Source of the DNA: Marinobacter pelagius
GTDB lineage: Bacteria > Pseudomonadota > Gammaproteobacteria > Pseudomonadales > Oleiphilaceae
DNA: 64,000 bases
NCBI RefSeq assembly: GCF_900114925.1
Contig: NZ_FOUR01000001.1
Location: forward strand, 558,001-622,000
Reading direction: 5' to 3'
Shown here: one piece after another, positions 14,043 through 27,120 of the stretch
How the letters are laid out: each line of letters opens with the position of its first letter
How positions within the stretch are numbered: position 1 is the stretch's first letter
Notes under the pieces: generated by a model
Told to the model about the DNA's origin: nothing
Databases searched by the model: none
Seen by the model: only the letters and a program-made list of their open reading frames with translations
Translations under genes and position numbers: made by a program

Positions 14043-14138
14043 GGAAGAGATCGTTCCCCGGTGGGGCGCCCGGTCTTCAAAACCGGGAGGGGTTGTCAAG
14101 CAATCCCTGGTAGGTTCGACTCCTGCTCTCTTCCGCCA
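14043..14138 (+). tRNA. selC: tRNA-Sec (anticodon UCA)
   Basis: A 96-base tRNA including an encoded CCA. It has the tRNA-Sec signature: an 8-bp acceptor stem (GGAAGAGA with TCTCTTCC), 5-bp T stem with TTCGACT loop, a long variable arm (GGGGTTG with CAATCCC, one wobble), and a 6-bp anticodon stem CCCGGT/ACCGGG holding CTTCAAA with anticodon TCA at 14077-14079. It starts 10 bases after the selB stop codon, so it is likely processed from the selAB transcript or has a promoter within selB. Confidence 0.95.
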
Positions 14139-18328: not shown

Positions 18329-18406
18329 AGCTAACGCCCGCCATCACCGGTGGCAAAACCGCAGCGAAGCGGAAGTTGTGGCATCCGGTGCATGGCCTGG
18401 TTACAC
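18329..18406 (-). repeat. attC site e
   Basis: Runs from AGCTAAC to GTTACAC with the interior GCCCGCCATCACCGG...AAACCGCAGCGAAGCGG...CATCCGGTGCATGGCCTGG. Nearly the same sequence recurs at attC j, 5.3 kb away. Confidence 0.82.
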
Positions 18407-22605: not shown

Positions 22606-22677
22606 CGCCCGGCTCACGCGCCGGTTTGGAGCCGCGGAGCGGCGGAAAATCGGTCGCTGTGCAGCGGATTGTTAAAG
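22600..22677 (-). repeat. attC site h
   Basis: Runs from ATTTAAC, a perfect RYYYAAC box, to GTTAAAG. The interior GAGCCGCGGAGCGGCGGAAAATCGGTCGCTGTGCAGCGGATT is related to attC f. It belongs to the ParE/antitoxin cassette on its right. Confidence 0.82.
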
Positions 22678-22965
22678 CCTGCCCAGCCAGTACTGCGGAC
22701 GCCGCCGATCATGGGCAACGGCCAGAACCTGAAAACCATCAGGCCTCTCTCGGTAAACGATGGACAAGGGAAATCTGTGAAGGGGCGCTCTACGAATATC
22801 TGGTGGCAACTCGACTTGCCAGGCTTTTGGTGACTCGCCAACTAAATTGGCCAAGGCCTCAAATTCCTCTATGAAGGCACCACCCAATCCCGGAACTTTT
22901 GATTCGTAATAACCAACTGACTCCAGGAACTCGGCTTCCGCTGCCGGGTGAAAAGAATAGGTCAT
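22672..22965 (-). CDS. parE: RelE/ParE family toxin (integron cassette)
   Basis: A 97-residue protein with the ParE layout: MTYSFHPAAEAEFLESVGYYESKVPGLGGAFIEEFE helical hairpin, then RRAPLHRFPLSIVYRERPDGFQVLAVAHDRRRPQYW beta-sheet. ParE toxins inhibit gyrase, while RelE relatives cut mRNA; the HDRRRPQYW ending is ParE-like. It overlaps its antitoxin by 4 bases (ATGA) and its stop is in the attC h box. Confidence 0.88.
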   Translation of the reverse strand: MTYSFHPAAEAEFLESVGYYESKVPGLGGAFIEEFEALANLVGESPKAWQVELPPDIRRAPLHRFPLSIVYRERPDGFQVLAVAHDRRRPQYWLGRL

Positions 22966-23186
22966 TTGATCAGTGCTCTAGCCTTCCTCATGACATCCTC
23001 ACTAGACACAGCCTGAACTGTGCCATTGTCCAGCTCTTCGCCTCTACGTCGGGCCTCAAGTAACCAATCGGATCTGAGCTCTTCTTCTGAAGGAGACTCC
23101 AGACTCAATACCAGTCTCTGGATCAATTGGGCTCGCTCCTCTTTAGGGAGGTGCAGCGCCTCGTCTTCAATTTTCTGGAGATTCAT
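22962..23186 (-). CDS. Addiction module antitoxin
   Basis: A 74-residue acidic protein (MNLQKIEDEALHLPKEERAQLIQRLVLSLESPSEEELRSDWLLEARRRGEELDNG) typical of the TIGR02574-type addiction module proteins that precede ParE-like toxins. ATG 23186 begins the family pattern; the longer frame to 23246 is not needed. It would bind and neutralise the overlapping toxin. Confidence 0.88.
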   Translation of the reverse strand: MNLQKIEDEALHLPKEERAQLIQRLVLSLESPSEEELRSDWLLEARRRGEELDNGTVQAVSSEDVMRKARALIK

Positions 23187-23261
23187 GGACAAAACCTCTC
23201 GTTCACGTATCACCCAATTTTGACACGGATGGGTACCAGGTGCCACGACTCGACTTTTCAG

Positions 23262-23325
23262 CTTTAACGTTTGGAACTCACGAGCGCGAGCAACGCGAGT
23301 GTCTCGTGTAGTGACCTTGTTTGGC
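23262..23325 (-). repeat. attC site i
   Basis: Runs from CTTTAAC to GTTTGGC with ACTCACGAGCGCGAGCAACGCGAGTGTCTCGTG as the imperfect stem. It is shorter and less like the other sites, so confidence in the ends is moderate. It closes the ParE cassette's right border. Confidence 0.6.
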
Positions 23326-23378
23326 AGCCCAGTCCAGCAAAGTTACCAGGATCCACCTTCCTCTAAGTCCACTCCGGA

Positions 23379-23567
23379 TTATTGGGCATGCGACGTGGCT
23401 CCAGGCGAGTGGTTAACGACGTACTGAAAAGATGAGAATGGCAACAAAAAAGGTAACGCGATCGCTGATGAATGGCGTGCCCTCGGAGACTCACAGGTGG
23501 CGTTCTCAAGCCGCGTCTTGTGACGCACCTGTGAGTCTCCGAGGGTAGCTGAAAAAGCGTTCAACAA
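23379..23567 (-). CDS. Short ORF in the LexA-box cassette (62 aa, uncertain)
   Basis: The frame starts at TTG 23567 with AAGGAAG seven to ten bases upstream and lies 50-65 bases downstream of a perfect LexA box, so an SOS-induced peptide is possible. The product has a basic first half (VRHKTRLENATCESPRARHSS) and a hydrophobic IALPFLLPFSSFQYVV segment. Its coding sequence includes both arms of the 20-bp inverted repeat, which would fold the message. Non-coding use of the region is equally possible. No family recognised. Confidence 0.35.
   Translation of the reverse strand: MLNAFSATLGDSQVRHKTRLENATCESPRARHSSAIALPFLLPFSSFQYVVNHSPGATSHAQ
23480..23545. repeat. 20-bp perfect inverted repeat with 26-base spacer
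   Basis: Arms at 23480-23499 and 23526-23545 (beginning CCCTCGGAGACTC on the left) are perfectly complementary. Three more pairs (CGT/ACG) can form across one bulge. No T tract follows on either strand. It lies in the 370-base cassette between attC i and attC j. Confidence 0.85.
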
Positions 23568-23595
23568 CGATCTTCCTTATTTTGTTTCGTGGTTC

Positions 23596-23658
23596 AGATC
23601 TCAACTCGAAAAATACTGTTTGAATATACAGTTATGTTTGTCTAACTTGTTGAGATCT
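23596..23658. promoter_or_regulatory. LexA box flanked by a 10-bp inverted repeat
   Basis: CTGT-N8-ACAG at 23616-23631 is a perfect LexA box and shares the flanks TA...TTAT with the box before intI. It is bracketed by AGATCTCAAC (23596-23605) and GTTGAGATCT (23649-23658), a perfect inverted repeat. No clear -35/-10 pair was found, so the direction of the controlled transcript is uncertain; the only nearby ORF is 23379-23567. Confidence 0.7.
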
Positions 23659-23692
23659 TGGGCCTTTGGATTCATTGCACTTACTAAGGTCT

Positions 23693-23771
23693 GCCCAAAC
23701 GCCCGCCATCACCGGTGACAAAACCGCAGCGAAGCGGAGGGTTTGGCATCCGGTGCATGGCCTGGTTAGAA
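23693..23771 (-). repeat. attC site j
   Basis: Runs from about CCCAAAC to GTTAGAA and is nearly identical in its interior to attC e (GCCCGCCATCACCGGTG, AAAACCGCAGCGAAGCGGA, GGCATCCGGTGCATGGCCTGG). Confidence 0.82.
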
Positions 23772-23802
23772 GTGTTTAGGTCCTCCCGAGTGACGCGATT
23801 AC

Positions 23803-25109: not shown

Positions 25110-25258
25110 ATCGTCCTAACAGCAATTGGACAACGTGCTGCATTATCGCGGAAATTTTACCGCTTCATGATTACGGGTTTTGAAACCGGCAGCATTTCGT
25201 CCAAAAATTTATAAAACAACAGCTTAGCCCACCGCATGGGTCGTTTCCACGTAATCAT
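25110..25258 (-). other. attI-like recombination region
   Basis: The first cassette joins at TCCTAAC (25114-25120), which reads GTTAGGA on the cassette strand, identical to the right end of attC k. To its right is a non-repetitive 140-base segment up to the intI promoter, the expected place of attI and of the cassette promoter Pc. I could not define the weaker integrase sites or a convincing Pc; TTATAAAT near 25210 on the minus strand is a candidate -10. Confidence 0.65.
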
Positions 25259-25305
25259 TTGACATCTGTGATCCGCTCCTCCAATAATACTGTATAGATA
25301 TACAG
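25259..25305 (+). promoter_or_regulatory. intI promoter with LexA box
   Basis: TTGACA (25259-25264) and AATAAT (25283-25288) are 18 bases apart and form a good sigma-70 promoter. A perfect LexA box CTGT-ATAGATAT-ACAG (25290-25305) covers the expected start point, so integrase expression should be repressed by LexA and induced by DNA damage, as known for several integrons. Confidence 0.85.
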
Positions 25306-25327
25306 TTATCGGCATGGAGCCTTCACT

Positions 25328-26287
25328 ATGCAGGAAAAGCAGCCCCGCCTGCGCGACCAGGTTCGCGCTGTTATTCGGGTTAATCACTACAGCGTCCGCA
25401 CAGAGAAAACTTACTGGTACTGGATCCGCCATTTCATTCGGTTTCATCAAATGAGGCATCCCCGGGACATGGGGCCGCGTGAGGTTAATGAGTTTTTAAC
25501 CTGGCTTGCGGTGCACCGGAATGTTGCTGCAGCGACGCAAGCTCAGGCTTTGAATTCTCTGGTGTTTTTATATGACAAGGTCCTGGACCAACCGTTGGGA
25601 GACATCGGCGAGGTTATTCGCTCAAAGAAACCCCGAAAGCTGCCGGTGGTGCTTAGTCACGAAGAGGCCATGCGTATCATCAATCAGCTTGACGATACTA
25701 ATAGGCTGATTGCCTCTTTGCTCTATGGATCAGGGCTACGTGTTACAGAGGCATGCCGACTCAGGATAAAAGATCTGGATTTCCCACAACAGGTGATCAC
25801 GATACGCGATGGCAAAGGGGCAAAAGACCGGACAACATTGATGCCTGCTTCTCTCATCGGATCGTTACAGGACCATGTGGAAGCCATCCGTAGAGCATGG
25901 AAACAACGAAGTGAACAGTTCCTGCATCCCGTAAGCCTTCCTTTTGCGCTGGCTCGAAAGTACCCGGGAGCCGGCCATTCACTGGAATGGCAATGGCTCT
26001 TCTCATCGCCCACTCTCAGCACGGATAATCTGGGCAATGTTTGCCGCCATCATCGCCACATATCCTCCGTGCAGAGGGCCGTACGTAACGCCGCAAGAGA
26101 AGCCGGCATCGGTAAAAAGGCCGGTTGTCACACGTTTCGCCACAGCTTTGCCACTGAGTTGCTGAAAAGAGGAACCGATATACGGACAGTACAGGACTTG
26201 CTGGGCCACTCGGATCTGCGCACCACCCAGATCTATACCCATGTGCTCGGGCAAGGATTTGCAGGGGTACGTAGCCCACTTGGTTGA
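25328..26287 (+). CDS. intI: Integron integrase (tyrosine recombinase)
   Basis: A 319-residue IntI. Catalytic residues are all present: Arg138 (GSGLRVTEACRL), His268 and Arg271 (CHTFRHSF), His294 (LLGHSD) and Tyr303 (TQIYTHV). The IntI-specific insertion is visible as LPFALARKYPGAGHSLEWQWLFSS, which separates integron integrases from XerC/D. It catalyses cassette insertion at attI and excision at attC. The gene points away from the cassette array, the standard integron layout, and converges on the CLCA_X gene with 9 bases between stops. Confidence 0.95.
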   Translation: MQEKQPRLRDQVRAVIRVNHYSVRTEKTYWYWIRHFIRFHQMRHPRDMGPREVNEFLTWLAVHRNVAAATQAQALNSLVFLYDKVLDQPLGDIGEVIRSKKPRKLPVVLSHEEAMRIINQLDDTNRLIASLLYGSGLRVTEACRLRIKDLDFPQQVITIRDGKGAKDRTTLMPASLIGSLQDHVEAIRRAWKQRSEQFLHPVSLPFALARKYPGAGHSLEWQWLFSSPTLSTDNLGNVCRHHRHISSVQRAVRNAAREAGIGKKAGCHTFRHSFATELLKRGTDIRTVQDLLGHSDLRTTQIYTHVLGQGFAGVRSPLG

Positions 26288-26296
26288 TCACGCCGC

Positions 26297-27070
26297 TCAG
26301 CGAGCCAGTCTTTGCAATGCACAGCCCAGGTTCTGGAAGTAATCCTTGAAGGCAAAGTTAATCCGCCCTCGCTGTTCACCCTGTGGATAAAGCCCCAGCT
26401 TTGCTTCTTCCGATTCCCGGGTTCCGCGCACCAGAAATGCATTCTTGCACTGTGCATCCTGCACAAATGCTTCAAAGGCCCGGGCGCAGAGTTCTTCCGG
26501 CTGGCTGTAGTAATGCACGCCGGCAGCCTTGTCGGCTTTCGCAGATTTTCGGAACAGGTCGCTGGGTTCGGTGCCGGCGTCGTTCAGCAGAACGGCGCGG
26601 TAGCAGGCTTGCAGGCGGTCGTTCAGGGGATGGGGGATGGCGTCTTCGCGGGTGAGCCAGAGCTTTGAGGCAAACTCGCCTTTGCCCGTACCTGTGAATA
26701 ACTTGTCGGAGATGTAATGGTCGAAGGCGTGGAACCATTCGTGGGCGATGCTGCCTGGGCCGGCGTTCTTGGCCAGGGCGAAGCTGCGGGTGGCGGGGCT
26801 GTAGTGGGCAGAAACACCAGGGCGGCCTCCGATGCCGTACTGCAGCGCCAGGGTGCCGCGCAGGGAGATGAGGCTCTCGGTGCCGCCGAGGATGGTCATG
26901 AGATCACACAGGGCATCGTAGAACAGGGCAGCACTGCGCTGTTTTTCCGGTTCGGTCACCCAGCGGCCGATCTCCACCGTGCGGAAATCGAAGCGGCGGC
27001 GAACGTCCAGGAAGGTCACGGGGGCATCGTCCCGATGGTCGGGGCCTCGGCGGTAGAAGGTTCTTGGCAT
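26297..27070 (-). CDS. CLCA_X family protein with zinc-protease motif
   Basis: A 257-residue protein with HEWFHAFDHYI (HExxH metalloprotease signature) near residue 110, and a later EELCARAFEAFVQD helix that can give the third ligand. This is the layout of the CLCA_X family in Marinobacter-like genomes; activity is not established. ATG 27070 (MPRTFYRRGP) starts the conserved part. It forms the right flank of the integron and diverges from the crotonase gene. Confidence 0.72.
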   Translation of the reverse strand: MPRTFYRRGPDHRDDAPVTFLDVRRRFDFRTVEIGRWVTEPEKQRSAALFYDALCDLMTILGGTESLISLRGTLALQYGIGGRPGVSAHYSPATRSFALAKNAGPGSIAHEWFHAFDHYISDKLFTGTGKGEFASKLWLTREDAIPHPLNDRLQACYRAVLLNDAGTEPSDLFRKSAKADKAAGVHYYSQPEELCARAFEAFVQDAQCKNAFLVRGTRESEEAKLGLYPQGEQRGRINFAFKDYFQNLGCALQRLAR

Positions 27071-27120
27071 GGGCCAATCATAGGGAGACAATCGCTCTGA
27101 ATCTACCGAACAAGGAATCC

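Follow-up and report, generated by a model that had tools for sequence, protein, structure and literature searches.

A recurrent Marinobacter integron cassette lacking a conserved open reading frame carries a LexA box and a covarying hairpin

Integron cassettes are usually regarded as passive cargo, with SOS control exerted through the integrase gene alone; LexA-controlled intI promoters have been described (Cambray et al., 2011; PMC3108266). Among cassettes that lack an open reading frame (ORF), TMB4 and MMB37 of oral Treponema are proposed to act on transcription of the array or of intI (PMC6557892), and ORF-less cassettes encoding small RNAs are known from sRNA-Xcc1, as cited in PMC8876359 and PMC6557892. 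Our study describes a family of ORF-less cassettes in Marinobacter that carries a LexA box and a long hairpin of its own. Such a recurrent cassette, the commonest first cassette at the attI sites studied here, would make SOS control itself mobile, and with it the role of ORF-less cassettes, a long-open question, becomes testable. Neither non-coding cassettes under LexA control nor orphan attI sites turned up in any paper of the open-access literature searched, which is weak evidence of novelty.

The window, by which we mean the whole 64,000-nucleotide stretch of DNA analysed, holds an array with its integrase gene. As intI lies on the plus strand, the array extends leftward and its cassettes are read on the minus strand. 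The LexA-box cassette is the third from attI, spans 432 bp and has its own attC at the left end; its limits follow from the GTTRRRY recombination points at the attC sites and from where homology with relatives starts and stops. The first-pass annotation had placed a short cassette at 23326-23692; the cassette is real, but that interval misses its own attC (23268 to about 23330), and the attC at 23700-23768 is a property of the neighbouring cassette. Bounded by integron recombination points and with an attC at its 3' end, the element is organised as an integron cassette, with the following features in and around it:

23268-23699, minus strand: whole ORF-less cassette, in the same sense as the array's other cassettes; limits placed at the G^TT points in the attC sites on either side, where homology across species also starts and stops
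23268-23330, minus strand: the cassette's attC, at its 3' end; an inverted-repeat site kept at the same end of relatives, where the attC of subfamily B differs
23379-23567, minus strand: 62-aa ORF with a TTG start, without conservation and judged not a gene
23445-23574, minus strand: core spanned by covariance models R1 and R2 (E 4e-39 in the own genome)
23460-23472, minus strand: P2 outer stem, 3' arm
23480-23545, minus strand: P3 long palindrome, with a 20-bp perfect stem, an inner stem and a conserved apical AAG-N6-CTT with a bulged base
23560-23572, minus strand: P2 outer stem, 5' arm, GATCGTTGTTGAA
23596-23605, minus strand: P1 3' arm (inverted repeat around the LexA box)
23610-23615, minus strand: -10-like hexamer TATTTT, immediately 3' of the LexA box on the sense strand, without a recognisable -35
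23616-23631, no strand assigned: LexA (SOS) box, CTGTATATTCAAACAG on the sense strand; CTG-N10-CAG in 17 of 17 distinct intact members
23649-23658, minus strand: P1 5' arm (inverted repeat around the LexA box)
23700-23768, minus strand: attC of the intI-proximal neighbour cassette, 94% identical to the attC at 18333-18403
25110-25260, minus strand: attI region of the integron, matching sequence that adjoins relatives L003, L004 and L006
25290-25305, no strand assigned: LexA box of the intI promoter, with TTGACA-18-AATAAT just upstream
25328-26287, plus strand: intI integron integrase, 319 aa (PF00589, E 1.5e-34; PF13495, E 7.7e-32)

Several relatives of the cassette likewise lie beside intI and others at an attI without intI; the integrase gene was detected in 94 of 124 Marinobacter genomes. 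The adjacent cassette (22672-23246) is probably a toxin-antitoxin cassette, in which a PF09720 antitoxin-like gene (22962-23246, minus strand) overlaps a 97-aa gene (22672-22965, minus strand). A tRNA-Sec gene lies at 14043-14134, just after selB and near the far end of the array, and an LPD1-domain gene (PF18796) at 26297-27091, directly behind intI.

The perfect LexA box reported by the first-pass annotation, CTGTTTGAATATACAG, is present at 23616-23631, and its flanks do resemble those of the intI promoter, as had been claimed (84% over 31 nucleotides, 23605-23635 against 25279-25309). All 17 distinct intact members of the family share CTGT, T at position 6, AA at positions 11-12 and CAG within the box, while the immediate flanks differ. 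The own genome contains 35 matches to CTGT-N8-ACAG against 14 for the reversed control, and A/T-rich sites of this form precede recA, lexA, recN, dinB and imuA-like genes, which were assigned from their translations. The cassette box differs at two positions from the recA box of the same genome, CTGTTCAAATATACAG, and is of the type that the host places before these genes. Kept in 17 distinct members and sharing its motif with the SOS-gene boxes of its own genome, it is a genuine SOS box; family invariance and likeness to the host boxes together make LexA control of the cassette a well-founded prediction.

Promoter signals are sparse. A plain scan of 23200-23800 found no terminator and no sigma-70 consensus promoter of the kind expected of a TMB4-type promoter cassette, and a weight-matrix scan of both strands of the cassette gave best scores within the range of shuffled sequence, compared with 12.4 for the intI promoter. 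The sole conserved promoter sign is the -10-like hexamer that follows the box on the sense strand without a -35 (T 88%, A 76%, T 88%, N, N, T 94% across the family). In E. coli recA and umuDC, the -10 hexamer likewise comes after the LexA box. As the P1 repeat flanks the box, a transcript starting there would miss one P1 arm.

Both inverted repeats described earlier are in place, the 20-bp perfect repeat at 23480-23499 and 23526-23545 and the 10-bp repeat around the LexA box at 23596-23605 and 23649-23658, and the proposal of a folded region is borne out on both strands, each giving a much stronger fold than shuffled sequence (z -4.6 and -4.7). The repeats are also conserved in homologous cassettes, a point on which the earlier reading had been made to depend, and every intact distinct copy retains a palindrome of 20-25 bp. 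In an alignment of 18 distinct rows fitted to the covariance model, the 22 pairs of the P3 stem are 99.7% paired; 16 have changed on both sides, six are invariant and none has changed on one side only. Taken as a whole, the structure has a covariation score of 0.440; shuffled controls give 0.165 and slid ones at most 0.135. This is covariation beyond controls, as expected of a structured RNA, but P3 comprises 390 Watson-Crick cells and not a single G-U, so that copying at the DNA level is possible; the other helices do have G-U pairs. Such strictness is unusual under RNA selection and fits, indeed points to, DNA-level copying between the arms. Wobbles in P2 (six UG, eight AC) favour neither strand. 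The covariation thus supports a kept structure, but not RNA as the level at which it is kept.

Around this variable stem, the base of P3 (GCTACCCTC and GAGGG) and its apex (AAG-N6-CTT with a bulge) are kept. A 10-bp repeat of the P1 type is present in both subfamilies with different sequences, the arms of subfamily B (GTTTTCTTGC and GCAAGAAAAC) likewise surrounding the box, and is absent from L055. Two copies have been remodelled, L003 by loss of the hairpin loop and shortening of the stem and L007 by an inverted duplication within the hairpin, from which it follows that DNA-level rearrangement of the palindrome does occur. The duplication in L007 (1650-1740, the copy of genome G033) resembles the outcome of template switching during replication. 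A guide-like stem with a target was considered and rejected; the P3 stem arm has no second site in the own genome at up to 3 mismatches, and nine stem arms have no phage match.

A BLAST search with the cassette over the 124 Marinobacter genomes found its relatives, and a covariance model of the hairpin core counts 26 sense copies in 17 of these genomes. The covariance search found none in 39 genomes of other genera of the family and none outside the genus among the 392 order and 369 class genomes sampled, in a search whose first look scores just 8-27 candidates per genome and may miss weak relatives. A 25-base core pattern run over 84,980 species returned Marinobacter and one gammaproteobacterial MAG (L055), which carries both the palindrome and the LexA box; two further matches in Coriobacteriia were put down to chance. 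The relatives fall into two subfamilies, A (the window copy, L003, L004, L005 and L006) and B (L008, L009 and L026-L036), in both of which homology ends at the cassette limits and whose attC sites are unlike. Several copies per genome occur in G107 (including tandem copies 425 bp apart), G034, G104 and G056, and L015, L007 and L006 are rearranged or truncated. That box and hairpin exceed chance, as had been suspected, is upheld by this recurrence in 17 species and by the strong covariation. Searched by blastn against 72,556 plasmids and 50,697 phages, copies of both subfamilies gave no match, and the core pattern is absent from all viral contigs searched; a phage or plasmid origin was rejected on these negatives. 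The copy in G102 (L028:876-1364) adjoins a gapped intI-like sequence, which is probably a decayed integrase gene.

The element often stands at the head of its array. Between 10 and 11 of the 26 copies lie directly at attI, and the element takes first place beside intI in G056, G034 and G104. Subfamily A copies adjoin an attI like that of the window in L003, L004 and L006 (alignment z 26, 24 and 14) and weakly in L005 (4.3); by the same alignment test no such attI adjoins the window copy itself. At 33 attI sites of a second type the element comes first at 8, one of them truncated by the end of a contig, and the other 25 first cassettes are mutually unrelated, making it the sole recurrent first cassette among the sites examined; 30 of these sites were chosen by attI similarity alone, with the element first in five, and three were added as element carriers. 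For comparison, PMC6557892 gives one ORF-less cassette among 42 first cassettes in a published marine set. Standing first so often may reflect either high mobility or a role at that position.

Two IntI lineages occur in Marinobacter, about 75-100% and about 50% identical to that of the window; subfamily A pairs with the attI of the first and B with that of the second. The second-type attI is a 275-bp unit that ends at the palindrome GGAGTTTTGCGAACGCGTTCGTATAACTCC and is found in 72 of the 124 genomes (loci L031:1753-2037, L040, L053, L058, L009 and L077-L106). About half of its full-length copies have no intI nearby and run directly into ordinary chromosome. An rsmJ-like locus shared by G121, G059 and G114 has an orphan attI in common with differing first cassettes, as if such sites were loaded in trans.

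We favour, tentatively and at a little under even confidence, the reading that this integron cassette, which has no ORF, bears as its payload a structured non-coding RNA under SOS control; of the earlier proposals, 'structured RNA' or 'SOS-responsive cassette' holds as a class, the SOS box and the structure both being conserved. We infer that LexA, bound to the box near the 5' edge of the cassette, would hold transcription off, by blocking either a start of the cassette's own beside the box or read-through from the array. DNA damage would remove LexA, and RNA would then be made from the sense strand. This RNA may fold to an extended hairpin of P2 and the long P3, whose base and apical loop are conserved, and could act either in trans or upon transcripts of the integron itself. 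The family of 26 copies and the MAG, the invariant LexA core, the covariation, the kept apex and base and the lack of an ORF favour an SOS RNA cassette, as do the recA- and umuDC-like placement of the -10 hexamer and the precedent of known sRNA cassettes. The stem without G-U, the lack of a -35, consensus promoter and terminator, and the position of P1 around the box count against RNA. A known RNA family was ruled out by Rfam, which gave nothing at gathering threshold in the cassette, neither sRNA-Xcc1 nor any other family, and up to E 10 just eukaryotic hairpin families.

The alternatives differ in what they take the conserved parts to be for. That the 62-aa or another short ORF encodes an SOS-induced type I toxin of the TisB/DinQ kind, as the first-pass annotation suggested, would suit a short ORF in a folded region downstream of a LexA box. 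The 62-aa ORF does exist, but it starts with TTG, its start is not conserved, and in relatives indels and stops interrupt the reading frame. The same annotation had seen no recognisable gene, and rightly so, as no ORF is conserved among relatives and no frame on either strand survives across members, in which no conserved short hydrophobic peptide was found. In subfamily B, variability by codon position (0.07/0.14/0.16 before, 0.06/0.08/0.07 in and 0.13/0.11/0.13 after the hairpin) lacks codon phase, with no third-position signal, and we consider the toxin highly improbable. A toxin ORF from the conserved GAGGGTAGC...GTTCAAC was also rejected; some members allow a protein to be read from it, but the frame is lost in the palindrome, and likewise in the copy in the window. 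A long, variable, perfect hairpin within a conserved outer stem recalls the a1/msd/a2 layout of a retron, whose RNA could be served in trans by a reverse transcriptase; we give this the least credence of all, as no RVT_1 domain is present in the own genome and none is listed for the element carriers G033, G107, G114 and G117, which refutes a retron for the own genome unless the enzyme lies in sequence missing from the assembly. Elsewhere, RVT_1 genes do occur at most a few kb from loci of the element or of attI (G056:C1:1680581 and 2069743; G102:C3:99973; G064:C22:175870) and are possibly attC-targeting group II introns. We also find it highly improbable that the repeat is due to chance or that a silent cassette is decaying as junk; the truncated or rearranged L015, L007 and L006 would fit decay, but covariation and the invariant LexA core contradict it, and box and structure are kept over two subfamilies with different attC and in one other lineage.

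The all-Watson-Crick stem and the weak promoter leave room for a role in array gating or at the DNA level. LexA might block Pc read-through or repress a start on the box side, so that SOS opens the cassettes behind; in a variant, an element standing first in the array would let SOS open intI on the other strand. The hairpin would serve the switch as 5'-leader or insulator. We hold such a transcription switch to be unlikely, yet a serious contender. It would account for the frequent and singular occupation of the first place at attI and for flanks like those of the intI promoter, and promoter activity of ORF-less cassettes has been measured (PMC6557892); but the cassette's promoter scores stay inside the shuffle range, the conserved part is mainly a hairpin that a plain promoter would not need, and the window copy is the third cassette. 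Slightly less probable is a role of the palindrome at the DNA level, where as a hairpin or cruciform it would make the cassette a better recombination substrate or help it back to attI, the LexA box timing this with induction of the integrase. Integron recombination uses folded single strands, and the strict joint evolution of the P3 arms, the rearrangements in L003 and L007, the multiple and tandem cassettes in G107, G034 and G104 and the attI bias all agree with such a role. However, the bulged apical loop and conserved base suggest that the element is not just a palindrome, no attC-like boxes are present in the stem, and template switching can change both arms in concert without function. 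It is likewise doubtful, though conceivable, that the non-coding cassette works to the benefit of the integron, or to its own, and not to that of the cell: through its LexA box it would be tied to the same SOS pulse as integrase induction, and the palindrome, as DNA or RNA, might raise its return to attI or control transcription at the array head, including at orphan attI sites elsewhere in the chromosome that the integrase loads in trans. Whether or not its product is the SOS-controlled RNA that we favour, the cassette gives the impression of a functional non-coding element, and not of junk or a toxin gene.

Set against the described systems, the cassette shares with TisB and DinQ a short ORF close to a LexA box and a folded region, but has no conserved ORF, and with retron msr-msd RNA a variable long hairpin inside a conserved stem, but its own genome has no reverse transcriptase. 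With sRNA-Xcc1 of the Xanthomonas integron it has in common a non-coding cassette thought to yield a regulatory RNA; sRNA-Xcc1 is tied to HrpG/HrpX, whereas the present cassette has no Rfam match and is tied to LexA. The LexA-controlled intI promoters (Cambray et al., 2011; PMC3108266) have the same type of LexA box in an integron, with similar flanks, but here the box lies within a mobile cassette and not before the integrase. With TMB4 and MMB37, as the accessible part of PMC6557892 presents them, the cassette shares an attC, the lack of a gene and a possible first place at attI; a LexA box or long palindrome is not described in that part. Unlike those promoter cassettes, the Marinobacter cassette is without a sigma-70 consensus promoter, and it belongs to a single family that recurs across species.
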